A stretch of DNA of 64,000 nucleotides. It comes from Cordylochernes scorpioides (lineage: Eukaryota > Arthropoda > Arachnida > Pseudoscorpiones > Chernetidae). A program made the translations under genes and the position numbers. Below the pieces are notes generated by a model that did no database searches, was not told the DNA's origin, and saw only the letters and a program-made list of their open reading frames with translations. This document shows positions 5,772 to 54,944 of the stretch, one piece after another (position 1 is the stretch's first letter; every line of letters starts with the position of its first letter). The DNA lies in assembly GCA_030710605.1 (NCBI GenBank), contig CP092863.1, positions 139,098,994-139,162,993 of the forward strand, in the 5' to 3' direction.

Positions 5772-8052
5772 AGGTCTCAAGGCCGCAGCCTTGCAGAAAA
5801 TCGACATGGACCCAGAACTTTACACACCCAAGATAGAGGACATTGCGACCGCTGTGATAGAGATGTATGAGGACATCTGAGGCTCATCATTGGACACAAC
5901 AACAACAACAATACAGTATACACACCCAAGATAGAGGACATTGCGACCGCTGTGATAGAGATGTATGAGAACATCTGAGGCTCATCATTGGACACAACAA
6001 CAACAACAATACACTATACACACCCAAGATAGAGGACATTGCCACCGCTGTGATAGAGATGTATGAGAACATCTGAGGCTCATCATTGGACACAACAACA
6101 ACAACAATACAGTATACACACCCAAGATAGAGGACATTGTGACCGCTGTGATAGAGATGTATGAGAACATCTGAAGCTCATCATTGGACACAACAACAAT
6201 ACAGTATACACACCCAAGATAGAGGACATTGCGACCGCTGTGATAGAGATGTATGAGAACATCTGAGGCTCATCATTGGACACAACAACAACAACAACAA
6301 TACAGTATACACACCCAAGATAGAGGACATTGCGACCGCTGTGATAGAGATGTATGAGAATATCTGAGGCTCATCATTGGACAAAACAACAACAACAATA
6401 CAGTATACACACCCAAGATAGAGGACATTGCGACCGCTGTGATAGAGATGTATGAGAACATCTGAGGCTCATCATTGGACACAACAACAACAACAATACA
6501 GTATACACACCCAAGATAGAGGACATTGCGACCGCTGTGATAGAGATGTATGAGAACATCTGAGGCTCATCATTGGACACAACAACAACAACAATACAGT
6601 ATACACACCCAAGATAGAGGACATTGCGACCGCTGTGATAGAGATGTATGAGAACATCTGAGGCTCATCATTGGACACAACAACAACAACAATACAGTAT
6701 ACACACCCAAGATAGAGGACATTGCGACCGCTGTGATAGAGATGTATGAGAACATCTGAGGCTCATCATTGGACACAACAACAACAACAATACAGTATAC
6801 ACACCCAAGATAGAGGACATTGCGACCGCTGTGATAGAGATGTATGAGAACATCTGAGGCTCATCATTGGACACAACAACAACAACAATACAGTATACAC
6901 ACCCAAGATAGAGGACATTGCGACCGCTGTGATAGAGATGTATGAGAACATCTGAGGCTCATCATTGGACACAACAACAACAACAATACAGTATACACAC
7001 CCAAGATAGAGGACATTGCGACCGCTGTGATAGAGATGTATGAGAACATCTGAGGCTCATCATTGGACACAACAACAACAACAATACAGTATACACACCC
7101 AAGATAGAGGACATTGTGACCGCTGTGATAGAGATGTATGAGAACATCTGAAGCTCATCATTGGACACAACAACAATACAGTATACACACCCAAGATAGA
7201 GGACATTGCGACCGCTGTGATAGAGATGTATGAGAACATCTGAGGCTCATCATTGGACACAACAACAACAACAACAATACAGTATACACACCCAAGATAG
7301 AGGACATTGCGACCGCTGTAATAGAGATGTATGAGAACATCTGAGGCTCATCATTGGACACAACAACAACAACAATACAGTATACACACCCAAGATAGAG
7401 GACATTGCGACCGCTGTGATAGAGATGTATGAGAACATCTGAGGCTCATCATTGGACACAACAACAACAACAACAATACAGTATACACACCCAAGATAGA
7501 GGACATTGCGACCGCTGTAATAGAGATGTATGAGAACATCTGAGGCTCATCATTGGACACAACAACAATACAGTATACACACCCAAGATAGAGGACATTG
7601 CGACCGCTGTGATAGAGATGTATGAGGACATCTGAGGTTCATCATTGGACACAACAACAACAACAATACAGTATACACACCCAAGATAGAGGACAATGCG
7701 ACTGCTGTGATAGAGATGTATGAGGACATCTGAGGTTCATCATTGGACACAACAACAACAACAATACAGTATACACACCCAAGATAGAGGACATTGTGAC
7801 TGCTGTGATAGAGATGTATGAGGACATCTGAGGCTTATCATTGGACACAACAACAACAACAATACAGTATACACACCCAAGATAGAGGACATTGCGACTG
7901 CTGTGATAGAGATGTATGAGAACATCTGAGGCTCATCATTGGACACAACAACAACAACAATACAGTATACACACCCAAGATAGAGGACATTGCGACTGCT
8001 GTGATAGAGATGTATGAGAACATCTGAGGCTCATCATTGGACACAACAACAA
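5772..8052 (+). repeat. 98-bp tandem array (~23 units) made of a non-LTR retrotransposon 3' end
   Basis: The array opens with a longer 5'-truncated unit (GCAGCCTTGCAGAAAATCGA) and then repeats the terminal ~98 bp about 23 times, in units of 92-101 bp. Each unit reads, on +, YTPKIEDIATAVIEMYENI, a stop, a short 3' UTR and then (CAA)n. The 3' end of the I-like element at 44,395-44,535 has the same order: GCAGCCTTGCAGAAAATTGA, a YTSKLVYIAAAAVIEMHGDI terminus, and CAACAAC. The array is therefore reiterated retrotransposon C-terminus plus tail. Length variation is mostly in the number of CAA triplets. It lies in the VPS50 intron. Confidence 0.85.
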
Positions 8053-8054
8053 CA

Positions 8055-8165
8055 AGGTCTTCATTGTTGGTTCCCACTGTGGGAAAGACTCCACCAACAG
8101 TGGACTGCAGAGTTCTTTCCCCAGAGTTGTGTCCCCAGTAGCTAACATAGAAGGTTGTGGTGTCA
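8055..8165 (-). repeat. Repeat fragment shared with 45,665-45,770
   Basis: The segment with GGGAAAGACTCCACCAACAG and GTTCTTTCCCCAGAG matches GGGAAAGACTCCGTCACCGA and GTTCTTTCCCACAGAG near 45,697-45,745. It is probably another retrotransposon 3' end on the - strand, and it abuts the following VPS50 exon. Confidence 0.45.
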
Positions 8166-11260: not shown

Positions 11261-12541
11261 CAGTAGAACCTCCCTGAGAAGACACTCTCGCTAGAGGACA
11301 TTTCTCTACAAAAAAAAAAAAAATAGTTTCCATCTCTAAAAATTACCTATTTTGCTATTTAGAAACTCTCTGGTGAAAGGACAGTTCTCCTTAAAGGGCA
11401 CTTTACCTCTGTAACTAGGTGTTGTCCTTTACAGAGAGATAGTTCTACTGTAGCAACTCTCTGGTAAGAGGACAACTCTCTCTAAAGGACACTTTGGCTC
11501 TGTAACTAGGTGTTGTCCTTTACAGAGAAGTAGTTCTACTGTAGCTGCTCTCTGGTAAGAGGACACCTCTCCCTAAAGGACACTTTGGCTCTGTAACTAG
11601 GTGTTGTCCTTTACAGAGAGGTAGTTCTACTGTAGCTGCTCTCTGGTAAGAGGACACCTCTCCCTAAAGGACACTTTGGCTCTGTAACAAGGTGCTGTCC
11701 TTTACAGATAGGTAGTTCTACTGTAGCTGTTCTCTGGTAAGAGGACACCTCTCCCTAAAGGACACTTTGGCTCTGTAACTAGGTGCTGTCCTTTACAGAG
11801 AGGTAGTTCTACTGTAGTTGCTTTCTGGTAAGAGGACACCTCTCCCTAAAGGACACTTTGGCTCTGTAACTAGGTGCTGTCCTTTACAGAGAGGTAGTTC
11901 TACTGTAGCTGCTCTCTGGTAAGAGGACACCTCTCCCTAAAGGACACTTTGGCTCTGTAACTAGGTGCTGTCCTTTACAGAGAGGTAGTTCTACTGTAGT
12001 TGCTCTCTGGTAAGAAGACACCTCTCTCTAAAGGACACTTTGGCTCTGTAACTAGGTGCTGTCCTTTACATAGAGGTAGTTCTACTGTAGTTGCTCTCTG
12101 GTAAGAGGACACCTCTCCCTAAAGGACACTTTGGCTCTGTAACTAGGTGCTGTCCTTTACAGAGAGGTAGTTTTACTGTAGCTGCTCTCTGGTAAGAGGA
12201 CACCTCTCCCTAAAGGACACTTTGGCTCTGTAACTAGGTGCTGTCCTTTACAGAGAGGTAATTCTACTGTAGCTAGTCTCTGGTAAGAGGACACCTCTCC
12301 CTAAAGGACACTTTGGCTCTGTAACTAGGTGCTGTCCTTTACAGAAAGGTAGTTCTACTGTAGTTGCTCTCTGGTGAGAAGACACCTCTCTCTAAAGGAC
12401 ACTTTGGCTCTGTAACTAGGTGCTGTCCTTTACAGAGAGGTAGTTCTACTGTAGTTGCTCTCTGGTAAGAAGACACCTCTCTCTAAAGGACACTTTGACT
12501 CTGTAACTAGGTGTCCTGGTGTTACAGGAAGGTTCTTACTG
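11261..12541 (+). repeat. MITE-2 internally expanded into ~13 tandem ~91-bp units
   Basis: The left end TA + CAGTAGAACCTCCCTGAGAA and the right end GGAAGGTTCTTACTG + TA are the inverted termini of a pogo-like MITE. Between them the distal part (CTCTCTGGTAAGAGGACACC ... GAGGTAGTTCTACTGTAG) is repeated about 13 times with 90-96% identity by eye. The duplicated part contains the right TIR itself, so each unit ends in a TIR-like TTCTACTGTA. It lies in the VPS50 intron. Confidence 0.85.
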
Positions 12542-19139: not shown

Positions 19140-21755
19140 TATTCTTAAATTATAAAAGGATGAACGTTTATGGTTTATCATCCATTAATTAATTTAAATC
19201 TCCTGGATATTAATTAAATAATTAAAACGGTTTCTGGAGATGCGTTTATTTTAATTTAATAAAACCGTCTCAAGCTTTTAGGTATCTCTGTCCTTTCACA
19301 GGAGAACATGAATAAAACGCCGTCTGATGCCAAACTATTACAAATTTATATATATACATATATATATTTACATTGGGATATTTTTGCATATTGTTTTTAG
19401 TTAGAATATATTCTCATTTAATTAGCGTGTATTTGCATATTTACTATTAATTGATTTATTTGGGGAATTTTCATATAAATTGGAATTTTCATTTATTATT
19501 TTGTATTTATGTTTTATAATGGCTATATCTAACATTTTTATCATCCATTTTTGTCTAATCACAAGTTTCATCTAGAATTAAACGTTTTCTATATTTGAAA
19601 GCTTCAGTGGAGCTAATGACTATGGCATCTTTTAGAAACATATGGCCTCTTACACCTTTCAGTCCGACATAATGACTGTCACGTTGTCGTTATTCCAATA
19701 GTGTCACTATTGTGTCGGCCTTCCAGGTCTCGGATCCATTAGTTGAGCCAAGTATGATCTAACTCCACGTCGAACAATGGCTGTTTAAGTCATCGCCAAG
19801 TTAACCTTCCTACCATGTGTCATCCCAGGGCACTTACTCCAGAAAGACATCAGCCCGGCATGCCTTAGCAATGCGATAGAATTTTAGGAATGTATCTTAT
19901 ATATAGATAGAGGTTGCCTGGCTGGAATTCATAGTTCTTAAAATTGAAGATACTTCCGGGGGGGATCGGTGGAAGGATGGTCTAAACCGTAAACAAGCAG
20001 TACGTTCTGACCAAAAATATAATTTATTTTTCAAGCTATTTGATACTATTATCAGACTGGCTGCCATATTAACATATGTAGCTTATTTATATAAATTTGG
20101 TTTATTGTAACTTTATAGCTTATATTCACTGATATATAATTCTCTTTCAATAGGTATGCGAAATAGGTTTAGTTCACAGCAAACTTAGAAATTCATAATA
20201 TGATCAAAGAAAAATGTATTTTTGTTTTATCTTGTCTTAGTTTTTTTTTTGGAAACTATGGAAAAATATCACTATGTTTGTGGTTCACATTTCATATGAT
20301 GAAAATACTCTCGTTTAGTTGGTGTTTCCTCTGAAAAATAGAGTAAGATTGAAAGAAATGGCAATGTCTTGTCTTCCTTTTCTATAGAGATAAAATTGGG
20401 ATTTTAGGCGTGATATTCATTGTGTGTGTGACATAACGTTCATTTTTTAGAATCTATATTTTAAAAAAAAAATCAATTTTAAAAAATGAGACAGTTATTA
20501 AATGTGTTTAAATGTTTTTTTTTTTTTTTTTTTTTTAATATCGAATATTTTATTTCTATATTATTCACGAATTTCAACCTCTTTCTTCAGATTAGAAATT
20601 TTGTATAGGCCTACTATATATTGTTTTCAATTTTTTTTTATTTTTCATATGATCTTTGTACGAAAATAAAGATGTTTATTTAACAAACATTTATAAGCCA
20701 CTAATATGCGTGACCACCAGGGGTATTCGAAAATATATTAATAGATAATAATTTTTTACGTTTGTGTAAAATGAAAGTCAAGTTTTTGCCAATGACTTTC
20801 TCTCCCGACCGTGTAGGAATTTTTGGCTGGATGTCATGACATTGGCATCCTCATTTGGCAGAAGGCAGTCTGATTCACAAATGCATCGTACCAGTTTTTT
20901 TTTTTTAAGTCTTTCAAACATTTTAAAAATTATGATCTTTTCTATTCCTTATTCTATTTGGTTGAAGCGTAAATTTCTAAATATTCTTGGTTATGGTGAT
21001 ACTCATGCCTTACCTCCTTTTTTAAAGCAAGTTTTAATTTAGATTCATTTGATTATTTTTTTAAGTTAGGAAAAGTAGACATTAATTTTGCATGAAAAAA
21101 TAATAAACATTTAAAATGGTAATATATTTAATGTTAAAATCAAATGAAAAATTTTCCTATATCTTATAAAATTATAAATTATTCTTTTCAAAAATAACGT
21201 TAATTTAAATAATTTAAAAATAAAAAACATAAATAGTAACAATATATATTGTGTTGTGTGTATATTTAATTATAATTTTATTATAACAGATTTATATTCC
21301 CCACAAAACCTTTTATACACTACACTGACAATTTGCAGATTATATACGTATTTTTAATTTTAAAAGCGTCATCTATATTCATAATTAAAATATTATCAAT
21401 ACGGGTTTGAGAATATATACGTATTTATTATAGATATTTTATAATAAATATATTTCTATATATTTTATAAAATATAAAAATATTTATTCCTTAAATTTTA
21501 TACTAATTTTCTATGAAATTTTCTAAATCAAATAATGAGAACTAAATAACTCGGTGGGAAAAGTATTTTGATACAGCCCGTTAACCAAATAGAAGCCATT
21601 TTAAAGAGAAAGATTAAGTGTATATTTTTATGATATTTTAGACTCTATTCAATAATTTTAATAAAGAACAAATTATTTTATTCTTAATATTTGTTATATG
21701 TCACTGAAAAATGGCCATATAGATATTTTTAACATAATCTAAAATATTTCCACAT
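19140..21755. other. AT-rich, TE-poor stretch upstream of the RING gene
   Basis: About 2.6 kb with homopolymer runs (e.g. T-run at 20,516-20,536) and scattered short frames. Bases 19,650-19,870 are less AT-rich but have no long open frame. Apart from an isolated SINE-head-like GATCGGTGGAAGGATGGTCT at 19,964-19,985, I see no repeat families here. Confidence 0.45.
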
Positions 21756-21759
21756 CTCA

Positions 21760-22839
21760 ATGTCGAAAATTACAAATAAACAAAGTGAGCATATCGAAAA
21801 TCCAAGTTTTTCGAATAACTTTTATTTAATGTTAAGATGTCCAATTTGTTTGAATATAATTACAAATACGGTTGCAACTAAGCAATGCCTGCATCGTTTT
21901 TGTCAGGAATGTCTCAAACAATGCCTCAAAAATGGTCAAAAGCGATGTCCAACATGTTATCTGAAATTGGGCTCCATACGCTCGTTTGTCAGAGATTATG
22001 AATTTGATTTATTGATCAAAAGAATTTTTCCAAATAGAGATAAATATGAAAACGATGGTAATTTTTTAGTAGATGTTGTTGGTGATTTCTGCAAGAATTT
22101 CTGCGTTCCTCTGTTATTCAAGAGATCGTTAGAAAATGTGAAGAGTGAAAATGAAATAGAAGGACAATCTACACATCAGACGATACCAAAGGTATTTTCA
22201 TTTTCTAATTCTTCTCAAATAAATGAAGCGCAAAAGCCAAATTGCGAAGATACTGTAAAGAAATTTTTTAATGAAATAGGAATAACTCCTTTTCCTAAAT
22301 ACCAAAATGCTTTTGAAAATCTGTTCGGTGATCTCAACAAACGAATTACACATTTATTCAAACGAGAAAATCTTGCCGAAAACGAAGTATTGAATGAAGC
22401 AGACGATTCTAGAATTTCTAGCATTGAAGATAGTACAATAAATGATAGTACTATTGATGGAAGTTTTAATATTTCGACAATAAAAGAAGAGAATGATAGC
22501 GATAGTGAAATGCACGATATTACACAGGAAGAAGAAGAGGAAGAAATAGAAGTGATTGTGAAGCCATTATTTCCTAATTTCGGCGGATATAGTGCAGATC
22601 TTTTAAGATGCCGATACATTAAACTTCCAAGAAATGCATTTATTTCGCATATCAATAAATATATTAATATATGCTTCAAGAGAGAAAGCAACATTGAAAA
22701 AGATCTTGATTTCGAAATTTTCATAATGTTTCCGGATGGTACTATTTATATTCCTCACCAGAATGTAACATTTCAACATATAGTTGATACTATTTGGACT
22801 CTGGATAAACCCATTGATATATTCTATGCTACAAAATGA
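21760..22839 (+). CDS. RING1/Sce-like Polycomb E3 ubiquitin ligase, intronless
   Basis: An uninterrupted 359-residue frame. The RING finger has ligands C27, C30, C43, H45, C48, C51, C63 and C66, the same spacing as RING1A/B, within the family signatures CPICL, CLHRFC and CPTC. The flank LIKRIFPNRDKYE also matches RING1. Residues ~210-262 are acidic and Ser-rich. Residues ~264-357 (RYIKLPRNAFISHINKYI, TIWTLDKPIDIFYA) match the RAWUL/ubiquitin-like domain that binds CBX or RYBP. The RING1B arginine that anchors on the nucleosome acidic patch is kept (R74); the lysine before it is Ile (I73). Known role: H2A K119-type monoubiquitination in PRC1. Absence of introns and strong divergence suggest a retrogene. 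AATAAA lies at 23,143. The ATG at 21,760 is the first in frame. Confidence 0.85.
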   Translation: MSKITNKQSEHIENPSFSNNFYLMLRCPICLNIITNTVATKQCLHRFCQECLKQCLKNGQKRCPTCYLKLGSIRSFVRDYEFDLLIKRIFPNRDKYENDGNFLVDVVGDFCKNFCVPLLFKRSLENVKSENEIEGQSTHQTIPKVFSFSNSSQINEAQKPNCEDTVKKFFNEIGITPFPKYQNAFENLFGDLNKRITHLFKRENLAENEVLNEADDSRISSIEDSTINDSTIDGSFNISTIKEENDSDSEMHDITQEEEEEEIEVIVKPLFPNFGGYSADLLRCRYIKLPRNAFISHINKYINICFKRESNIEKDLDFEIFIMFPDGTIYIPHQNVTFQHIVDTIWTLDKPIDIFYATK

Positions 22840-35909: not shown

Positions 35910-38398
35910 ACAATAGAGACATTAAGTGAAGCGTCTTCGGATATCACAATCATACTCGGCGAATTTAACGCCAAAAGTTCAATTTGGGGATCACCTGTCC
36001 AGGATAACAAAAGTCAGCAGGTTGAGGACATGCTAACCGACCTCGACCTTACACCGTTAAATAACGGAGAGAACACCTACCTATCTAAGTCCACAGGCAC
36101 AGAATCCGCAATAGACATCACAGCGATAAATTACAACATCGCACCCACAACACAATGGAAAATCCTGAGAGGTACAATCACTGACCACAGACCAATTTTA
36201 ACAACCCTAAACTTCAAAATTGAGAATTTCCAACAGAATAAAAGAACACTGGGAAAAATGCACAGAAAAGCTTGAAGAACTGTGCAACGAAGAATTAAAT
36301 CACAGAACGCTTGACAAAAACTTGAAAAAATTCTCTTCGAACATTTCAAAAGCTGCGAAAGCATCGATACCTAGAGGTAGACGTAAAGACCTGTGCATAC
36401 CTTACTGGAAGAACCACAACATCGAGGCAATGATTTCAGAGAGAGAGACAATATCAATGAACTTCTTAAAAATATAAAACAGAAGAAAACAGAAAGGAAC
36501 TCATTGAAATTAGTCACAAAATAAAACAAGAAATTTGGATATGCAAACAAGAAAAATGGCAGAATTCTGCGAAAAAATGGAACCAAAAAAGGACAGCCAA
36601 CACTGGAATATGTTTAGAGTGTTAGACAACAATCAAAACCAACACCAATCCTCCAATACTCTAACCGATATGAATAGAACAGCGAGAACGAGAACAAACA
36701 GATGGCTGACATAATTGCTGAATATCTTTCAAGCACTTCCATACTCAACTATACGAATGAAGACAGGACTCTAAAAATAATATAAACCAGTTAGTTAAAC
36801 AAGCAAGAAACTTCCATCAACAAGATATTTTCTCGAGAGACTTCACACTGAATGAGCTAAACTTATCAATAAAATAATCCAAGAGGTCACCAAGAGATAA
36901 TCTAATCTTTGGTCAAATGATTAAACACTTTGAAGACAAAGCTAATAATCAACTCCTACGAATACTGAACATTTCATTGGAAACTGGAAAACTACCAAAG
37001 AATTGGAAGATATCAATTATAGTGCCAATACTGAAGCCAAACAAAGATGCCAAGGAATACAAGAACTATCGGCCAATTGCTCTCACCAGCATACTCTGTA
37101 AAATACCAGAACGAATTATCCACTCTAGGCTCATAGTCTGGCTCACTAACAATAATAAAATAAACCTCTACCAAACTGCCTATAGATCCCAGCACTGTAC
37201 GACTGATCAACTGTTCTACTTCTGTCAATCAATAATAGATTCTTTCCAGGAAAAACCGCCAAAGAAGACCACGGCTATATTCCTTGATATGACCTCAGCT
37301 TTTGATCGAGTGTGGAGGGAGAAATTACGTGAAAAGCTGCACAACATCGGAGTAAGAGGAAAAACCTTAATCTGGATTGCAGAATTCTTAAGGGGAAGAA
37401 GGTTAAAGGTTCGGGTCAATGGAGAATTTTCCAAGGAAGGAAGAACATGGCTTGGTGTAACTCAGGGATCTGTCCTCAGTCCTCAGTCCTCTACTCTATC
37501 TGCTATATATTAACGACATCCATCCTTACCTCACTGATGACACAAAGGTTGCCTGTTATGCCGATGATATAGCCATATGGCACACAAGTAGCAGCATAGA
37601 GAAATCGTAAAAAATACTGAACACATCAATGAGAGTACTGGGGAAGTGGGCAATGGAACTCCAAATGACCATAAACCCAATAAAACCAAACCTATGCGTC
37701 TTCTCCACTCACAGGGAAAAAGGCATAAATATAGCCACAAAATAAGCATAAACAAACAAATAATTGATAAAATTAGAAATCCATAATACCTAGGTGTGAT
37801 ACTGCAGTCCTGGATCTTTCAAGTTGGTCTCGAGGACCACGCCATCACCATCTCCTAAGCGGCGAAGTACGCTATCTACGTATTCATCGTAGATCGCAAA
37901 TTGCGTTGTGTCGCTGGAGACCCACTGGCGATTCTCCACCAAATTCTGCAGCGCTGGCAGGGGCGCCATATTCATTGTACATAGTGTATATAATGCATAT
38001 AATCTTTTTTTAATAGTGCAGACTGTGCATGTATTGACAAGATGTCAACAAAATCATTTTAATTATTATTGATGAGGAATTGGAATTTTCAGAACACATA
38101 ATTAGCACCTCAAATAGAGCTATCAAAAAACTAAACATTCTGAGAAGGCTATGTGGAACAAATTGGGGAGCAAAACCCAGAATTCTCAGAACAAGATATA
38201 CCACCTTAATAAGGCCGATAATGGAATATGCAACACCGGTCTGGGCTCCCTCAAGCTCATCACTAAAAGTAAGACTAGACAGTGTTCAAGCAAAAGCGGC
38301 CAAAATAATCACTGGTGCTGTTTCATCCACCAACAATGAGAAAATTCAGAGAGAATGTGTTCTAGACCTACTCGCTCGAAAGAAGAAGACAAAATAAA
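35905..38398 (+). pseudogene. I-like non-LTR retrotransposon: endonuclease and reverse transcriptase (5' part)
   Basis: The AP-type endonuclease segment shows IILGEFNAKSSIWGS and ITDHRPILTTLNF. The RT region (36,917-37,600) shows NYRPIALTS, FLDMTSAFDRVW, GVTQGSVLSP and, in the next frame, CYADDIAIW (YADD at 37,557-37,568). A 7-bp tandem duplication (TCCTCAG twice, 37,473-37,486) causes the frame change between the last two. A 265-bp insert splits the thumb at 37,806-38,070; after it the frame resumes DEELEFSEHI ... MEYATPVWAPSS. Several stops make it inactive. The same element's RNase H continues at 43,790. Confidence 0.75.
37806..38070 (-). other. 265-bp coding-like insert within the I-like element
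   Basis: Flanking retrotransposon sequence reads YLGVIL before and DEELEFSEH after, so the insert is cleanly delimited. On - it carries ATGAATATGGCGCCCCTGCC (at 37,975) opening MNMAPLPALQNLVENRQW, then FAIYDEYVDSVLRRLGDG and VVLETNLKD. The frame is open to the insert edge, with G+C-rich codons unlike the surrounding retrotransposon. The upstream 90 bp are AT-rich, like a 5' flank. I do not recognise the protein. It may be a captured host exon or a piece of another element. Confidence 0.45.
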
Positions 38399-40880
38399 AA
38401 CAACTTGGATCGGCACTTCGGAAACGAGGAATCAGAGGACGAGATCTCTCTGACCACTTGTGGTTTGGTAGATCCGCCCTTTTCTGAGAATGAGGTGAAA
38501 CTGACGGCTTTCAAGTTCTGGAAAAGGAAATCTCCTGGTCCCGAAGGGATCGATAACACGGTCGTGAAAGCCCTGGTAAGGATGCACCCATCGCTTCTTT
38601 CCAGGTTATTCAATAGGTGCCTGGACACTGGTACATTTCCTGAGGCATGGAAAGTTGCCCGAGTAGTGCTTCTCGAAAAGTCTGGTAGAAAGGGTAATTA
38701 TCCTAATGATTATCGTCCGCTTTCTTTAATAGTGCGTCTAGGTATGGTCCTGGATAGCCTACTAGCTCAGCGACTGAAGCATTGGCTAGAGAGTAATATG
38801 CTCCTTTCCTCTTTCCAAAATGGTTTTAGGGAAGGGAAGTCCACAACCACAGCTCTGAACGAGGTGTTGGAGGGGGTTAAGATGGGATTAAATTGGGGTG
38901 CTTGGGTTCTTTTCGTGGCCCTGGACATTGATGGCGCGTTCAACTCCATGAGCTGGAACAAGCTGATGAGAAATTTGATGCACATGGGTTGTCCTGATAA
39001 TTTGTGCTGCTTGGTTCGTGACTTCCTGAGGGATAGACGGATTAGCCTCAGTTTTGGTGGGCTGAAGTTGGAAAGAAACTGTGCTAGGGGTTGCCCCCAG
39101 GGCTCTTGCTGCGGACCTATTCTGTGGAATATCCTGGTAAAACCGTTTTCCAGGAGGAGCTCCCTGAGGGAGCCAGGCTGGTTCTCTATGCTGACGACCA
39201 GTTCCTCATCATTGAGGCTGCTTCGAGAGCGAAGGCTGAGAAGTGTGTTGGAACTTCTCTCCAAATTCTCTCGATCTGGGCCCATGACTCTGGCCTTAAG
39301 TTCAATGTCTCCAAAACTAAACCCCTCAGCTTTAAGCCTAGGAACATAAGAACTAAAAGTAAAGGGATCAAATGGGAACACAAGCCGGCTATCCGGATGG
39401 AAGGACGGAGGGTAGCGTTGGTCAATAGGGTGACCATTCTGGGGGTGGTCATTGATGACAAGATGGGTTGGCAATACCAGGCGGAGGAGATGGTGGCGAG
39501 AGGCAGGGAGGCGTTGTGCAGGCCTGTCCTGGTTGGCTCTCAACAGGAGGGGGGGAGAAGGAGGGTACTATTTTTAGGAACCTCTGCCTCTCCTGTGTCG
39601 AGCCAATCTTGCTATATGCTTCCGGGGCTTGGTGGCGCCGAAACAGAGATCAGAAGGTGGCAACAACTCTAGAGAGAATGCAGAGGACAGCGGCACTCAG
39701 AATCACAGGCGGATATCGCACTACCAGCAGTGAGGCCTTTTTGGTCCTCGCTGGGCTTATTCCCCTGGGATTGAAACTAGAGGAGGAGACCATCAGACAG
39801 AAGATCTGGGAGAATAGGGAAGATGCCCTGGGACTTGAAGCGGGGGCCCTGGAATCGAAGAGGGATCCAAGGAAGCCTCCCAGTGGTTGCCAAAGTGGAA
39901 TTGGAGTCCTGGAGGGCCGACAGGGATTGGCACGGAGGTTTTCACTGATTGTAGTAAGTCTGGAACCAATACTGGAGTTGGGGTAGTGATATTCACTAAT
40001 GGAGAGCTGATCTTCCAAGAAAGTTTAACACTCAGAGTGGACGAATTGGTCTTTTCAGCCGAGCTGGTTGCGATCAGGGTAGCCCTCAGAGTGTATGCCG
40101 AGAAGAACTTCAGAGCCCGGACTGCCTCTATTCAGATTGTATGTCGGCCCTCGACGCATCAATATGGTGAAAGGGCAACTCGCGCATCAAATAATCTAGG
40201 AGCTGGAGATGATGACGCGGGCTCCGGAGCTACCTTGGTTTAGGAGACACAGCCTCATCGAAGGTAATGAGTTCGCAGACAGGATCGCTAAGACAGGATG
40301 CTTTAGAGGTAGATCACTGAGGACCCCAGTGACCAAGAAAGAAGTTTATAGAAGGATCAGGGGGCACGTCCAGGACTTATGGTTGGACAGATGGAGGAAC
40401 AGTGTGAAGGGGAGAGAGGTATTCAATGGGGTAACCACACACATAAGTACCTCTGTAAGGTAATGTCCCACAAACTCATTAGGGTAGTTCGGGACATGGG
40501 CTCTTCCCCAAGTCTCCACAGATTTAAAATTAAGAGAAACCCTGATTGCGTCTATGGAGAAAGGGATATGAATGCACGCCACTACGTTTTGGATTGTCCA
40601 AGGGTAGTGGGTGTTCAGGAAGAGAGAAGGAGGGCGAGGGGCGCGATCGAGAGTAAGCTGCTGAGAAATTACAGCAAGCTTCTTGAGAAAGCCCACGACA
40701 TGGCAGCTGAGCTTTTCCTCAGCTGTGAGTGAACAGAGTCGACCGGGGGCTGCCTCCCCGCGGTCCCTGCTGGACACAGTAGATAGTTTCCTATTTTGCT
40801 ATGATTAAAGGCCACCGGTATATAAATCCTTGCAGACACGTTGTCTGGGAGGTGGTGTTTCCAGGTACTTACTAGGTACA
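38399..40880 (+). pseudogene. R1-like non-LTR retrotransposon, 5'-truncated
   Basis: It starts in the RT: KFWKRKSPGPEGIDN, DYRPLSLIVRLGMVLDSL, FVALDIDGAFNSMSW, RGCPQGSCCGP and, after a frameshift, LVLYADDQFLI. A thumb-like region (PILLYASGAWWRR) follows. Then comes a divergent RNase H (EVFTDCSKSGTNTGVGVV, ELVFSAELVAIRVAL, LIEGNEFADRIAKTG), and a C-terminal part (ERDMNARHYVLDCPR) ends at a stop near 40,731. A ~150-bp 3' UTR without poly(A) follows. It is GC-richer than everything around it, which suggests a different age or origin. Four or more frame breaks. Confidence 0.75.
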
Positions 40881-43789
40881 GGTACATACTACTTGTATGG
40901 CACTTCTTCTATCAGTAAGAATCCATATATCGTGATGTTTAATGTTTCTAATGGATTTTAAGACTTCATAGATGGCTATAAGTTCTGATCTGAAGACTGA
41001 GCAGAATTCTGGGTTTCTTCTGTTTATTTTCTCATTGCCATTTGTGGTTTTAATGAGAGAGCCACTGCCAGTGTGTCCCAACTCGTCTCTGCTACCATCG
41101 GTATAGATAGTTATTGCATTTTTAGGAATTTTATTAATTATTTCTAATGATAATAGTTTTAAGTTTTCTGGATTTTGGTATTGTCTGTTGGTGGGTTCAT
41201 TTAAAGTGACATTAAAAATAACATTTTGTTAGTGGTTCGCATGGAGATATTTTTTCAGCTAAATAATATTTTTCCACTTTATATTTTAAAAATCCATTTC
41301 TTTTGGCCAGGTGGAGAGGGCCTTCTTTTTTGAATCTTATATTGGGTTCCCAATTAAGTATGTAATTGAAAGTTCTGTGTTTGTTTTCATAACTCTTGAT
41401 TTTGTTTATATATTTTGGCAGATTGTAGCTTATTCTATCCTTCAAGGGCATAATGTCTGCCTCGTAAAGTACAATATCATTAGGGCAGGTTTTTCGAAGA
41501 CCTGTAATAATTCTAGCTGCATTTAGTTGTATCCTTTCTAGTGTTTTTAGATTTGTTTCAGATGCTGTACCATAGATTTGATATCAATATTCCAAGATAG
41601 GTCTCATTAGAGAAGTGTAAGTTAATTTTAGTGTTGTTGCTTCAGCTCCCCACTCTTCCTGAAATATATTTCAAGATTTTTAGTCGGTCTTTTCCTTTTC
41701 TAACAACTCCTTCAAAATGCTTACTGGAGTTAATTTCTGGATCCAGGGTGTAGCCGAGATATTTAGGATGTTTATTATATTGCAATTGTTGTTCTTTCAG
41801 AATAATATTTGGTCTTATTTTGTATAATTTCTTATCGGTAGTAAAAAGACAGGTTTCAGATTTTTGGGGGTTAAATTCTAATTTATGTTTATCAGCAAAT
41901 TTTTCTAGGTGGAGAAGAGTCTTGTTCAAATCTCTTTCAGCTTTTTTTCCAGTTAGTGTTGCTGCTCCATAGAATAATGTCATCAGCGAAAAGTCCAATA
42001 TTGGTTTTATGTGAAAATTTTTCTTCTATGCCTGCAATAAATAGGGTGAAGAGAGTAGGGCTAAGGATTGATCCTTGTGGTAATCCTTGGTACAATTTGA
42101 AGGTTTTAGATAGAGTGCCATTATATTTGACCCTGATTTATATATTTTTAAGGGAATCATTTATCCAAGTGATAGCTTTTCCATCAATTTTGAAATGTTT
42201 GTATAATTTTGTAATTAACTTGTTTTTCCATACCCCTTATCAAAAGCTTGTGTAAGGTCTAAAAAGCAGCTATGGTGTGGTTAGTTATTTTTTTTTGTTT
42301 TGTGCATCTTTTACCTTTTGTGTGAAAAATAAGAGTTGGTCTATTGTCCCATGTCCTTTCCTAAATTCATATTGTTCTTCTGGTAAGAGATTTCTTGTGT
42401 CGGGGTGGTAGGTGAGTCGTCTGAGTATAATTTTTTCCATTAATTTGCAGCAAATATTTGTTAGGGAGATAGGTCGGTAGTTTTTTTGGGTCATCAGCAG
42501 ATTTGTCAAGTTTTTTAATGGGAATTATTGTTGCATTTTTACAGTCTTGAGGCAATTTTCCAGTTTTCCAGGAGTTATTGAAAATATTAAGAAGTCTTTC
42601 TTTGCCAATTTTGCCCAAGTTTGATATCATTCGGCCATGGATTCCATCTGGCCCAGGAGTCTTGTTTAGGTCAGTGTTTTCTAATGCATAAGCTAGCTTT
42701 TTCATATTGATTTTTTTCATGGAAAATATTATGAGTGCTGGTGATATTTTACAGTCATGAATAATCTTTCGGGCCTTTTTTCAACCTTGATTTTACTACT
42801 TATTTGATATGAATTACCTAAAAGATTGGCAGCAATTTTGTCATTAGTTGCTGGTGTACTATCTGTATTCTTAATCATATTTGTGTTTTCAGTTTTTGGC
42901 TGGGCTCTGTCAATTTGTTTTGCCAAATTCCAAAGTTTTGTATTTGGGTTTCTTGGGTTCAGGTTTTCTTAAGTTTGTTTCCATTTTTCCCTTTTCACAT
43001 TTACGCATAATCTTTTTATTTTTGCAATCCCAATGTTCAGTTCAGTTCTACAATTTGTTTGGTTTTGGGTGCACTTTTTTGTAGTTCATTTCTTTTAGTT
43101 ATAAGTGTTTGAATAAATTTTGCCTGGTGTGTATAATTTGGAATCCATTTCCTAATATTACCTCTTGGTATTGAAACGTTGGCTGCTTTAATAATGGTGT
43201 TTACGAAAGATATCCAATTAGCCTTTTTGAAGTTCCAGAATTTTTCTTAATTAAGCTAGTTTTGGTCTTGGTGCTAATTTCTATCAAATTAGGCAAATGA
43301 TCACTTCCAAAACATTTTAATATTTGCTATTTGCATTTGTGGAAAATGTCAGGATAGTAAAAACTTATATCAAGGGCTTGTGCAGTATTATAGCTTGTAG
43401 GAATGATGGGTAGGATTCCCATCATTTAAGCACATGAAGGCATTGTTGTCAAATATGTTTGATAGTATTTTGCCTCTTGGGTTTGGCGTAGAACATCCCC
43501 ATAGTTGATGTTTGGCATTAAGGTCACCTACAATAATAGTGTTGTCTGTAAGAAATTGAGCCATTGTTCCATCGTCAATAAATGTATTGTTTGGAGGGTG
43601 ATACATATTGTATATGTTGATGGTTTTGTTTTGATTGAGGTAGACTTTGATACCTTGGGCTTCGAGGTCTAATGTGTTTGTAATATTAACGGCTATGTCC
43701 TCATAGTACAAATTATTTATTAAAACTGCTAGGCCACGCCCTTTAACAGCATATACAGATGAATCTTCAGACCTTACCCTGAGTAATTG
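40881..43789 (-). pseudogene. Second I-like non-LTR retrotransposon, inverted
   Basis: Read from 43,789 down: endonuclease with GIKVYLNQNKTINIYNMYHP and TIIVGDLNAKHQLWG; RT with NKTPGPDGIHGRMI, KNYRPISLTNICCKLMEKII and, in a shifted frame at ~41,955-41,997, LFADDIILW; a thumb with HPKYLGYTLDPEI; and an RNase H start with FRSELIAIYEVL and ILTDRRSAIQVV (near 40,900-41,000). The 3' end is missing where it meets the R1-like element. It is broken by many small indels, more than the + I-like element. Confidence 0.72.
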
Positions 43790-44535
43790 AGGGGCCGGAA
43801 TTAACATAATACTGCAAGATGGAACAAACATCAAAATCAAAGAAGGAGCAGGACAGATTTCGTCAAACTTCACTTGTGAACTGACAGCCATCTGGAAAGC
43901 CCTTGATGTATGCCTGAACCAACCATCCCTGCATCAAGCAGAAGGAATTATAATATACAGCGACTCCAGATCCGCTCTAGAAGTAATTCAGAAGGGCAAT
44001 ACTAGAATCACACAGAAAATACACTCGTTACTTACCCAACTGGAATCATTGGAGAATAACTGCATTCTACAATGGATTCCTGCCCGTGTTGAGATCGGGG
44101 GTAATGAAATGGCAGTTGATTTGGCAAAGGAAGCCAGAAAGCTGAGCCAAAATAAAGAACAAATGTCAGTATTTGACGCTGATGCTTTGGCAAAATACAA
44201 GATAATTAAACAAAAAATAAGAAAAGATCAAATATGTGAAATAAACTCTGAGAGAAAACTGACAAAAACTATGACAAGACTTAGAACAAAACATTATAAA
44301 GGAATGAAAATACATCCAGATGACACAAGAACCTATAGAACATGCAACAACTGTCCTGGTGTGGAACTAACACCTACCTACATATTCTCATGCCCGCAGC
44401 CTTGCAGAAAATTGACATAGACCCAGAGCAGCAGCTTTATACATCCAAGCTAGTGTACATTGCTGCTGCTGCTGTGATAGAGATGCATGGAGACATCTGA
44501 GGCTATTTATTGGACACGACAAAAACAACAACGGC
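43790..44535 (+). pseudogene. I-like retrotransposon: RNase H and true 3' end
   Basis: This continues the element begun at 35,905. RNase H shows SNFTCELTAIWKALD, IIIYSDSRSALEVIQ and EIGGNEMAVDLAKEA (catalytic Glu and Asp visible). Then come a zinc-knuckle-like CNNCPG region and a C-terminus that, in the proper frame, reads PAALQKIDIDPEQQLYTSKL, VYIAAAAVIEMHGDI, stop, and then ACAAAAACAACAAC. This terminus is the progenitor type for the 98-bp array at 5,772-8,052. Confidence 0.78.
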
Positions 44536-51500: not shown

Positions 51501-51533
51501 TAAAAAATAATCATACCTTTCTATAATATGTAG

Positions 51534-51727
51534 TGTCGCATACCTCGATATATTTGCATTGTATTGTTTTGTTTTATATATTTTACATGTTGTTTCTTAT
51601 GAAAGGTGAATATATTTGCATGTCCGCGAGTAGCGCGATGTATATATATAGGTCAAGAGAGTAATAAAGTTAGAGTTTCTTTTGTATGAAATCTTCTCTT
51701 GTTCATTCTTGCTCGTAGAACACGACA
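51534..51727 (+). repeat. 5' LTR (194 bp)
   Basis: Starts TGTCGCATACCTCGATATAT and ends TCGTAGAACACGACA (TG...CA form). It contains a TATATATA run at 51,641 and an AATAAA at 51,663 in GAGAGTAATAAAGTTAG, plausible promoter and poly(A) signals for LTR transcription. Confidence 0.85.
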
Positions 51728-51729
51728 AT

Positions 51730-53325
51730 ATGGCGCAGCCGACAGGATCCTCAAGACCTTCCCTGGAAAGCCTCATCAAGGCGATGGCTGATCAGCAACG
51801 CTTAATGATGAGAATTCTTTGTGGAAATAAGAAAGAAGAATATTTCAGCGAAGAGGATTACTATGAACAAAAGGAATATCTCAAATATTCAGTTGTAGAA
51901 GATGTAGAAGATGTAGAGGATGTGGAAGATGTAGAAGATGTAGGAGATGTAGATGATGAGGAAGAAGAAGAGAGCCTTGAGTCTCTGGAAAGTATGGAGT
52001 CTCTAGAAAGTCTTGAAACGTCTGTTGAAGTTGAAGAAAGTGAAAAATCTCAAGTTGAGAAAAATTCAGTTGTAGAAACGGAAGAAAGTCATAAGGCTGA
52101 AGTTGAGAAAAAAACCGTTGAAGCAGATGAAAGTGAAAAATCTCAAGTTGAGAAAAATTCAGTTGTAGAAACGGAAGAAAGTGAAAAAGCCGAAATTGAG
52201 AAAAAATCCGTTGAAGCGGATGAAAGTGAAAAGGCTGAAGTTGAAAATTTTTCTGTTGAAGTTGAAGAGAGTGAAAAGGCTCAAGTTGATAAAAAGTCCG
52301 GTGAAGTTGAAGAAAGCGAAAAAGCTCAAGTTGATAAAAAGTCAGTTATAGGAACTGAAAGTGCAGAGCCTATTACGAAAGAGGTAGATAATGCAGGACT
52401 TTGTGATCTTGATGATGCCACTTTCACTCAAGCTGGGGAAATTGACAAAGATTCAGAGAATACAGAAGAAATTTCTGATTACATTATTGATGTTCCTACC
52501 ACTCAAGCTGGGGATATTGACAATAATACAGGGAATACAGAAAAAATTTCTGATTGCATTATTGATGTTCCTAACACTCAAGCTGGGGAAATTGATACAG
52601 ATACAGAGAATACAGAAAAACTTTCTGATTGCATTATTGATGTCCCTGACACCCAAGCTGGAGAAAAAGAACCTACTAAGGAGTCTGGTACTGGCAAAAA
52701 AGAACCAAAGCCTGGTACCGGCGAAGAAGCACCTCCAAAGGAGTTGAGCCTCCCCACCACCTGGAATAATAGAAACACCATCACCAAAGATATGAAGTTA
52801 TTGAGAAGAGCTTTGAGAGAGCTACCTTGTTACGATACTCTATTGGAAACTCTCAAAAAAGAAATCTATTCGTTTCAAACAAGCGGTGAAAAAATAAATA
52901 TGAAATTAGGAATATGTGATGCTATTATCTGCCATGGAATAGGTGATTTCGATAAATGCAATCACGCAAGATGTCGTTTGTTAATATTAAAGAAATTAAC
53001 ACGCTGCCAAAAAGTTTGGATTTATGCTAAAGAATTCAGCCAGATGCAAAAACGCATGCTTGATAAATATGACATTGGAATGATGGAAATTTCAGAGACA
53101 GAAAGTGGATATTTGCGTAGAGGTAAAACAATCTTCTTTCTACCAAGATCTCCGGTAGATATATACGAGGAGGTTGGGAAAGCTAATTGGACAAAGAAAG
53201 GACTACGTGACATTGCCATGATTGGGGAGGATGAAAGCAGAAGCATAATGAGATTTGATGAGCTCTTCTGGGGTAGAAAGTTAGTCCCTGTTGGAAAAGG
53301 CACATGGCCAAAATGTTTTTTTTGA
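51730..53325 (+). CDS. Retroelement ORF1: acidic repeat protein with C-terminal SRR1-like domain
   Basis: About 531 residues from ATG at 51,730. A longer frame opens in the LTR at 51,682, but a start right after the LTR is more likely. The N-terminus is MAQPTGSSRPSLESLIKAMA. Residues ~55-75 are (VED)n/E-rich. Residues ~97-215 hold repeats of the type VEESEKAQVDKKS. Residues ~235-315 hold three 25-residue repeats (TQAGEIDxxxxNTExxSDxI + IDVPx). Residues ~360-515 read like an SRR1 domain: ICHGIGDFDKC, ARCRLLILKKL, KVWIYAKEFSQMQKRML, IFFLPRSPVDIYEE, KANWTKKGLRDIAMIGE. The usual YDP and PHC positions are YAK and PRS. SRR1 proteins are host regulators of unknown biochemistry. No gag zinc knuckle is visible. 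It stops in a T8 run. Confidence 0.7.
   Translation: MAQPTGSSRPSLESLIKAMADQQRLMMRILCGNKKEEYFSEEDYYEQKEYLKYSVVEDVEDVEDVEDVEDVGDVDDEEEEESLESLESMESLESLETSVEVEESEKSQVEKNSVVETEESHKAEVEKKTVEADESEKSQVEKNSVVETEESEKAEIEKKSVEADESEKAEVENFSVEVEESEKAQVDKKSGEVEESEKAQVDKKSVIGTESAEPITKEVDNAGLCDLDDATFTQAGEIDKDSENTEEISDYIIDVPTTQAGDIDNNTGNTEKISDCIIDVPNTQAGEIDTDTENTEKLSDCIIDVPDTQAGEKEPTKESGTGKKEPKPGTGEEAPPKELSLPTTWNNRNTITKDMKLLRRALRELPCYDTLLETLKKEIYSFQTSGEKINMKLGICDAIICHGIGDFDKCNHARCRLLILKKLTRCQKVWIYAKEFSQMQKRMLDKYDIGMMEISETESGYLRRGKTIFFLPRSPVDIYEEVGKANWTKKGLRDIAMIGEDESRSIMRFDELFWGRKLVPVGKGTWPKCFF
51731..51748 (+). other. Primer binding site, tRNA-Ser type
   Basis: TGGCGCAGCCGACAGGAT begins 3 bp after the 5' LTR. 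Its complement ends in CGCCA and fits the T-arm/acceptor end of tRNA-Ser. The start codon of ORF1 (ATG at 51,730) overlaps it, so the first residues (MAQPTG) are encoded by the primer site. Confidence 0.75.
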
Positions 53326-54350
53326 GGGATGTTACTGATAATGGCGGATCTTCTGTTTATAGAATTGACCAGATTTCTGAATATAGGAATCCAAATGTTG
53401 ATCATAGAAAAAATTGGTCTTATATTTCTCCTAGAACGATTAAAAAGGAAATAAATATTTTTGATGCTTTAAGAACTTTACAAGGTAATGCTCAAGCCAA
53501 TCTGTGTTATCCTAAAGATTTTTGGATTGTTCGTGATTTGGGATCTAAATGTTTTCCAGATATTATTGAAGATAGTAAAAAGAATGATAATCCGAATCTG
53601 AATGTTTTTTACGAGAATGTTTCTCGGCTAATTTGGACCCATAATGAAATGCGAGACTTTGGCTCTGCTTATGAAATGCATACTGAATTCATTGAGGAGA
53701 CATCAACGCAGATTGCCGTTGAAGAAAGTCAAAATGCTCATTCAGAAACTGAAGACTTGGATGAGTTGGGAGTCATGTATTTCTGGCTGGTTGTCTTGAA
53801 GAAAGCTCTTCAGGCCAGCAGGTACATCCAACCCTATGACTGTTCAAAGCCTGCAGACGATACCTCTAAGCCTGCAGACGATACCTCTAAGCCTGAGACG
53901 ATACCTCTGGGCCTGCAGACGATACCTCTGGGCCTGCAGACGATACCTCTAAGCCTGCAGACGATACCTCTAAGCCTGCAGACGATACCTCTAAGCCTGC
54001 AGACGATACCTCTAGGCCTGCAGACGATACCTCTAAGCCTGCAGACGATACCTCTAAGCCTGCAGACGATACCTCTAAGCCTGCAGACGATACCTCTAAG
54101 CCTGCAGACGATACCTCTAGGCCTGCAGACGATACCTCTAGGCCTGCAGACGATACCTCTAAGCCTGCAGACGATACCTCTAAGCCTGCAGACGATACCT
54201 CTAAGCCTGCAGACGATACCTCTAAGCCTGCAGACGATACCTCTAAGCCTGCAGACGATACCTCTAGGCCTGCAGACGATACCTCTAGGCCTGCAGACGA
54301 TACCTCTAAGCCTTCAGACGATACCTCTAGGTCTTCAGATCTTCAATGAA
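53304..54350 (+). CDS. Retroelement ORF2, unknown, with 21-bp repeat tail and one frameshift
   Basis: It overlaps ORF1 by 22 bp in the -1 frame. ATG at 53,304 opens MAKMFFLRDVTDNGGSSVYR. The unique part (~180 residues) includes IKKEINIFDALRTLQGNAQ and CYPKDFWIVRDLGSKCFPDI, which I do not recognise. From ~53,847 a 21-bp unit encoding ADDTSKP repeats ~22 times. A one-base deletion near 53,895 shifts it to TIPLSLQ in the present frame. In the undamaged frame the repeats end RSSDLQ and TGA at 54,348-54,350, so the repeat tail was once in frame. It could be read as an ORF1-ORF2 fusion by -1 slippage at the T8 run. Confidence 0.6.
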
Positions 54351-54408
54351 ATAAGAGACCTTCAAAAGAGTCTCATCACAGGAGTGATGAGAGGTCATGG
54401 AGGGGGAG

Positions 54409-54604
54409 TCTCGCATACCTCGACATATTTGCATAGTATTGTTTTGTTTTATATATTTTACATGTTGTTTCTTATGAAAGGTGAATATATTTGCATGTCC
54501 GCGAGTAGCGCGATGTATATATATATAGGTCAAGAGAGTAATAAAGTTAGAGTTTCTTTTGTATGAAATCTTCTCTTGTTCATTCTTGCTCGTAGAACAC
54601 GACA
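54409..54604 (+). repeat. 3' LTR (196 bp)
   Basis: Near-identical to the 5' LTR. Differences seen: TCTCGC for TGTCGC at the start, GACATATTTGCATAGT for GATATATTTGCATTGT, and one extra TA in the TATATA run. Confidence 0.85.
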
Positions 54605-54944
54605 TGTAGTTATAATAAATCGAATATACAAAAAATATAAAACATACCAGTGGAATATTAAAGTAATTGTAATTGTTTGTAGTGTTATGTAAGCTTTATC
54701 TCGATATTGGTTCTAATTTCCTCAAATCTTTTTTGAATTTCAAAGAAAATTTTCAACTTTTTAGAACATTTTAGGAATTTCCGGGTTTAGCTTCAATGAT
54801 GGTTGGCAAGACATCTAGAACAATAGACCTCGCGTGATTGGTTGGCGCGTTGGCGGAATGGAAATTGGGAGATGAAATTTCAACCTGGGCGTCTCCAAAA
54901 TTATATTCGTTTTCGTGATGAATTTCAAAGGAAATCGTTGAAGG

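Follow-up and report, generated by a model that had tools for sequence, protein, structure and literature searches.

A pol-less LTR retrotransposon with an SRR1 domain and putative haspin- and NAP-like pieces, and its family in the genome of Cordylochernes scorpioides

Long terminal repeat (LTR) retrotransposons that lack pol and are moved in trans are known as TRIM and LARD elements; TRIM elements are very short, and the interiors of LARD elements are non-coding. The maize element Bs1 contains a relict of gag and no pol. Bs1 has been described as an LTR element whose hybrid frame joins pieces of three host genes (PMC13317346). Here we describe an LTR element without pol, detected by sequence analysis and Pfam scan at positions 51534-54604 of a 64,000-nucleotide stretch (termed the window) from the genome of the pseudoscorpion Cordylochernes scorpioides (contig CP092863.1). 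Very likely it belongs to a non-autonomous Ty3/gypsy family in which gag-pol has been replaced by a chimeric frame made of host gene pieces, and which would be moved in trans by an autonomous family. This reading is directly supported by the anatomy of the element, its family, the partner element, the mosaic make-up, the shared reading frame and the short matches at several joins.

The element and its family

An earlier note, made from the window sequence alone, had called the locus a real LTR retroelement without pol genes, and both statements held. The two LTRs are ~98.5% identical, their aligned part differing by two substitutions and a 2-bp indel; a TGTAG target-site duplication (TSD), a primer-binding site and a purine run are all present. 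The LTR starts also differ, the 5' copy having TG and the 3' copy TC. The primer site, presumably of the tRNA-Ser type, overlaps the start codon of ORF1 and thereby encodes the residues MAQPTG. In the Pfam scan, ORF1 and residues 1-181 of ORF2 gave no match to reverse transcriptase (RT), protease or integrase; the remainder of ORF2 consists of a 21-bp repeat and LTR. Because this scanned part contains no Ty3-type RT or integrase of its own, we file the element, judging by its sequence, as a non-autonomous Ty3/gypsy partner and not as a coding member. The order of modules is gag start, acidic repeats (already seen in the earlier note), SRR1, haspin-like N-lobe, haspin-like tail, piece of a nucleosome assembly protein (NAP) and 21-bp repeat. 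In the window a frame break behind SRR1 separates it from the haspin-like piece; uninterrupted copies exist, and in-frame fusions like that of Bs1 are found in the family.

Searching the genome of origin (2.62 Gb, 24 contigs) with the SRR1 piece gave at least 165 matches (150 of 811 first-look candidates were scored, and 150 matches were listed), which answered the question of further copies. Twenty relatives were fetched from this list, seven as the next best by score and thirteen chosen for long open frames. All 20 are flanked by window-type LTRs, with one 5' LTR truncated; the LTR pairs are 94.8-100% identical, and the elements are ~2.9-3.8 kb long. In 19/20 relatives the 5' LTR is followed by nucleotides 1-9 of the primer site. 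A script that picked the best fit within a small range found a 5-bp TSD and TG..CA ends in 18/20, 17 of which are clean by eye (the 3' end of L024 looks wrong). Window-type LTRs are also present in L056, a locus fetched for its haspin-like piece. By these features the window element is one copy of a large, young and, to all appearances, recently active family.

Cargo, partner element and joins

The SRR1 domain that had been proposed at the C-terminus of ORF1 was recovered by a profile search: residues 396-501 match Pfam SRR1 (PF07985) with 35.7 bits (cut-off 24, E=1e-8), the match spanning only profile positions 15-120 of 172. Scanning ten sister frames placed SRR1 above cut-off in five, and these together with the window range from 35.7 to 50.3 bits. 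SRR1 as cargo thus stood, but not as the only cargo, since haspin-like and NAP-like pieces follow and ORF1 opens with a gag N-terminus.

NAP is a histone chaperone, and haspin and NAP are chromatin and mitosis genes. Two haspin-like pieces occur in the family, A and B, which resemble one another. Piece B of relative L027 matches human haspin (3.2e-8) and a host haspin-like frame (3e-20); it scores 25.2 bits against the haspin profile PF12330 (cut-off 25) when excised and 22.3 in the whole frame. Piece A of L014 shows a weak haspin match (5e-4). Copies that contain piece B have a shortened SRR1 stretch. The window itself gave no Pfam haspin match, lacks the catalytic stretch and stays outside PF12330. 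Its NAP piece reaches 16.9 bits against PF00956, below the cut-off of 28.6; longer NAP stretches in five element frames (1020-1021 codons, also with piece B) score ~100 bits against the same cut-off, and the unsplit NAP stretch of locus L060 is 39% identical to a host NAP frame over 100 aa (E=1.4e-21). In many SRR1 copies the NAP stretch is divided into two modules, NAP1 and NAP2. The window pieces are probably haspin-like and NAP-like, an assignment taken mainly from the sister copies.

In a module comparison of 21 elements (window and 20 relatives) gag start and SRR1 were present in all of them. The part 3' of SRR1 is made of varying sets of haspin-like A, haspin-like B (8/21 elements), NAP pieces and the stretches X1, X2 and SRR1ext, the source of which was not recognised. 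X1 was tried as the tail of SRR1, and this assignment was rejected with no match to the sampled host SRR1 frames. A DDT-domain piece in L020, with a similar one in L056, is a weak lead (15.9 and 17.5 bits, cut-off 22). With the SRR1 piece as query, the PDB search gave no match. A large protein collection yielded 41 candidate homologues, none of them at E<=0.01; host coverage there is uncertain, and nothing is concluded from this search.

Relative L027 retains a Ty3-type gag capsid piece, below the Pfam cut-offs, between primer site and cargo. This piece gave 7918 first-look candidates in the genome, of which 150 were scored (82-100% identity); at least five lie in 1316-codon frames. L057, or else an element closely related to it, is likely the autonomous partner envisaged in the earlier note. 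This Ty3/gypsy element of 4.3 kb has two LTRs that show no difference between them. Its LTR is 80.7% identical to the window LTR over the full length of the latter, the whole primer site is the same, and its frame starts with MAQPTGS. The single frame has the order protease, RT, RNase H and integrase, with Pfam matches to Ty3 peptidase (7.8e-8), RVT_1 (5.2e-31), RNase H (8.1e-32) and integrase H2C2 (9.6e-19); rve (1.3e-5) and Ty3 capsid (0.003) are both below cut-off. An extra stretch of unrecognised source lies between primer site and capsid in L057.

At one locus, L055, likewise fetched for its haspin-like piece, SRR1, haspin-like B, X1, haspin-like A and further pieces lie in frame behind a DUF1759 gag (2.5e-32) in a 1544-codon frame, and a protease-like stretch was seen there below cut-off. 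We take DUF1759 to be a mark of BEL/Pao gag. Since the cargo lies behind this gag and a protease-like stretch, it appears to have crossed into a second element type. L019 and L055 share a tail module of unrecognised source, T19, in which 11 residues equal part of the L060 NAP stretch.

Template switching at short matches has been proposed as the mechanism that generates LTR retrocopies (PMC5408686, PMC9674220). Eight module joins of the present family, chosen by hand, were compared with living relatives of the parents, which are not the true parents; two joins had a gap and six an overlap. A base-by-base comparison showed exact shared stretches of 6, 4, 13, 7 and 5 nt at five of the six overlapping joins, the one of 7 nt being the window join inside the haspin-like piece. 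The sixth was mis-registered by a gap, so that the script value of 5 lies off the join; by eye the match is ~12 nt. Random joins share 0.76 nt on average, with P(>=4)=0.025. The contrast is indicative, since random joins were measured at one fixed position, whereas for the observed joins we took the longest stretch shared in their vicinity. The joins fit RT strand transfer at short matches. We propose that the element kept its cis parts (LTRs, primer site, gag start and purine run) and that an autonomous Ty3/gypsy family sharing them would copy it in trans. Pieces of host mRNAs (SRR1-like, haspin-kinase-like, NAP-like and some unrecognised) would have taken the place of gag-pol, and RT jumping between packaged RNAs at short matches could have brought about first the capture and then the reshuffling between copies.

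Alternative explanations and the host genes

The strongest alternative differs from the preferred reading solely on the use of the protein: the cargo might be a passive passenger, captured by chance and spread from a few master copies, with frames that are open owing to youth and a protein that is useless to the element. We give this somewhat less than an even chance. The LTR pairs are indeed young, the catalytic stretch of haspin-like A is found in only 4/21 elements (it is missing from the window), and stops interrupt the matched SRR1 stretch in 25/150 matches listed (hand count). Pooled dN/dS is 0.54 for 112 SRR1 codons in 21 copies (210 pairs; 0.52-0.63 by distance bin), and the variable SRR1 columns (44 nonsynonymous, 12 synonymous only) show a neutral-looking pattern. 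At best, then, the cargo is under weak selection. On the other hand, 125/134 modules downstream of SRR1 are in the SRR1 frame across differently built copies, as are 18/23 gag pieces, and 14/21 elements are wholly in frame, although these counts are biased upward by the 13/20 relatives chosen for long open frames. Among the 150 matches listed, the median open frame is 509 codons, with 400 codons or more in 95/150 and 700 or more in 41/150. SRR1 has also remained recognisable in the window and in half of the sister frames despite its divergence from the sampled host genes. That differently built copies are in frame is not expected of junk. Individual copies decay once inserted, and the lineage may be under constraint, though this is unproven. 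We infer that the chimeric protein may be made and may be useful.

A bolder version of this idea is rather unlikely in our estimation, namely that the shuffled SRR1-haspin-NAP frame is a working modular mimic of chromatin proteins, belonging to a new kind of parasitic LTR family and kept in frame as template switching exchanges its modules. If it were true, the mimic would help the element in the germ line, e.g. by dampening its silencing, by interacting with histones or by directing segregation or integration, and it would be tied in both directions to the expanded host arrays of SRR1-like and haspin-like genes.

These host arrays were found by Pfam profile search. SRR1-like genes occupy at least 109 places (150 rows listed, 41 element copies left out), with large arrays on the contigs C5, C3, C4, C15, C13 and C18, and haspin-like genes 112 places (113 rows), with large arrays on C10, C5, C3, C17, C14 and C21; NAP genes were found at about six places. 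In the host SRR1-like and haspin-like frames seen, the domain is covered in one piece, and a few of these frames contain stops. The SRR1-like gene is repeated about every 7.9 kb at C18:46590276-46606628 and C5:43167109-43183469, and the fetched C18 and C5 units are >99% identical. The host SRR1 loci L029-L054 were considered as copies of the window element and rejected, as they contain no window-type LTR or element DNA. Searches for the SRR1, haspin and NAP families gave no match in 14 control genomes.

It is improbable that an SRR1-haspin-NAP chimera was a host gene captured whole and once, with the variants arising by deletion. Host SRR1-like and haspin-like genes do adjoin: 6/112 haspin places lie within 10 kb of one of the 109 SRR1 places, on C5 and C18, compared with a mean of 0.11 under a shifted-position null (1/5000 as high; some chromosome lengths were approximated). 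However, all six pairs are on opposite strands, the neighbours facing each other, whereas the element pieces are co-oriented; these pairs are probably duplicates of one arrangement. Furthermore, X1 precedes SRR1 in L009 and follows it elsewhere, and there are two different haspin-like pieces.

The proposed phylogeny with host SRR1 genes was carried out: all 21 SRR1 sequences from elements group together with full support, apart from 21 sampled host genes. This single group on its long branch points to one origin of the element SRR1, with a donor that may be unsampled, long gone or fast-evolving. Capture of a host SRR1 gene, as claimed in the earlier note, remains likely, but its donor was not found.

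A gag or capsid domain that only resembles SRR1 is hardly credible. The frame does open with a gag N-terminus, but PF07985 is above cut-off in ORF1 and in five of ten sister frames, and L027 has a separate capsid-like piece upstream of SRR1; neither a missing SRR1 match nor a gag or capsid C-terminus, the two outcomes that the earlier note had named as speaking against its own claim, was observed. We can dismiss as next to impossible that the locus is an assembly artefact or a normal host gene flanked by repeats through chance: nothing was found in favour of this, and 20/20 fetched copies at other chromosomal places have the same plan, with the 5-bp TSD in 18/20 (script).

Several further observations weigh against a family of captured host pieces moved in trans. 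A branch of 3.2 changes per site parts the element SRR1 from the 21 host genes in a tree that the program flags for long branches and short rows. No immediate donor was found among these 21 genes or in the single haspin-like host frame examined, with which piece B shares only 26% identity. Piece A is not called haspin above the Pfam cut-off, SRR1 was reached by Pfam in only 5/10 sister frames, and two of the ten had no match at all. There is a gap at 2/8 joins and mis-registration at one. As the genes of the host families seen appear to have a single exon, loss of introns is no proof of capture through RNA. In L055 the cargo is present, but the 6 kb fetched contain no window-type LTR.

Features of the window and comparison with known systems

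Table 1. Features of the LTR element in the window (positions refer to the whole stretch)
Feature	Position	Strand	Basis
Target-site duplication TGTAG, left copy	51529..51533		sequence
5' LTR, TG start, CA end	51534..51727	+	sequence comparison
Primer-binding site TGGCGCAGCCGACAGGAT, overlapping the ORF1 ATG, encoding MAQPTG	51731..51748	+	sequence
gag N-terminus relict (MAQPTG...LMMRILCGN...)	51730..51897	+	module gagN opens all 21 elements compared; L057 frame begins alike
Acidic repeats of 9, 45/93 and 75 nt	51891..52666	+	repeat analysis
ORF1, 531 aa	51730..53325	+	ORF list
SRR1 domain (Pfam stretch 52915-53232)	52810..53232	+	PF07985 and module map
Haspin-like N-lobe piece (hasA_N), split by the ORF1/ORF2 frame break	53260..53450	+	module map; assignment from sister copies
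Remaining haspin-like piece (hasA_C1 + hasA_C2), catalytic stretch missing	53445..53705	+	module map and join comparison
NAP piece	53742..53840	+	weak alone; sister/host NAP comparison
ORF2, 420 aa from ATG, extending into the 3' LTR	53304..54566	+	ORF list
21-bp tandem repeat, 23 copies, open in several frames	53847..54329	+	repeat analysis
Purine run GGAGGGGGAG just 5' of the 3' LTR, candidate polypurine tract	54399..54408	+	sequence
3' LTR, starts TC	54409..54604	+	sequence comparison
Target-site duplication TGTAG, right copy	54605..54609		sequence

Elsewhere in the window, a 368-codon frame at 21733-22839 (+) contains a RING finger (8.8e-11) and a RAWUL match below cut-off; it is RING1/Polycomb-like, in one piece and possibly a retrogene. 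Tandem arrays with units of 110, 98 and 91 bp lie at 686-3439, 5821-8055 and 11366-12513, respectively. In the region 36878-44417, both strands contain pieces of RT, endonuclease-RT and RNase H, several in all, which look like remains of non-LTR elements.

Among the titles and abstract openings found for these genes together with retroelements or gene expansion, none describes SRR1 or haspin inside an LTR element. The wider literature search, covering the same kind of text, yielded no precedent for a family this large with shuffled modules, for the passage of cargo to a second element type or for a matched driver. The "new element type" of the earlier note is nevertheless too strong a term, as LTR elements that capture genes, such as maize Bs1, are known (PMC13317346); what we describe is a known kind of LTR biology in which the cargo is unusual. 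The family raises two questions: what led to the uptake of chromatin and mitosis genes (haspin, NAP), and whether the recurrence of in-frame joins reflects selection on the chimeric protein.

The retroduplication of NLR genes in pepper (PMC5664825) is alike in that host genes were amplified and transposable elements were involved; it differs in concerning a plant and another gene family. In metazoan LTR-mediated retrocopies (Tan et al., 2016, via PMC5408686) template switching likewise joins a host mRNA to LTR-element RNA. Those are presented as partial copies of single genes (PMC5408686), whereas here a multicopy chimera has been reshuffled further. Pxyfem, the W-linked LTR retrocopies of PxyMasc in Plutella (PMC9674220), likewise combines an animal LTR element with a host gene piece and shares gag remnants and a short match at the switch. 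It forms tandem W-linked clusters that yield silencing RNAs (PMC9674220), in contrast to the present LTR family, which is young and dispersed and has a long open frame. Unlike TRIM and LARD elements, the present family combines lengths of ~2.9-3.8 kb with long coding frames.

The closest likeness is to Bs1, in which several captured host pieces are fused into one chimeric gene between LTRs (PMC13317346). The present family differs from it in having at least 165 SRR1 matches, varying module sets and an SRR1, haspin and NAP cargo, in having an autonomous partner, and in a cargo that once stands behind a BEL/Pao-type gag. With a numerous young family, a driver, many module sets and readable joins, the capture and shuffling of host genes by LTR elements becomes countable.

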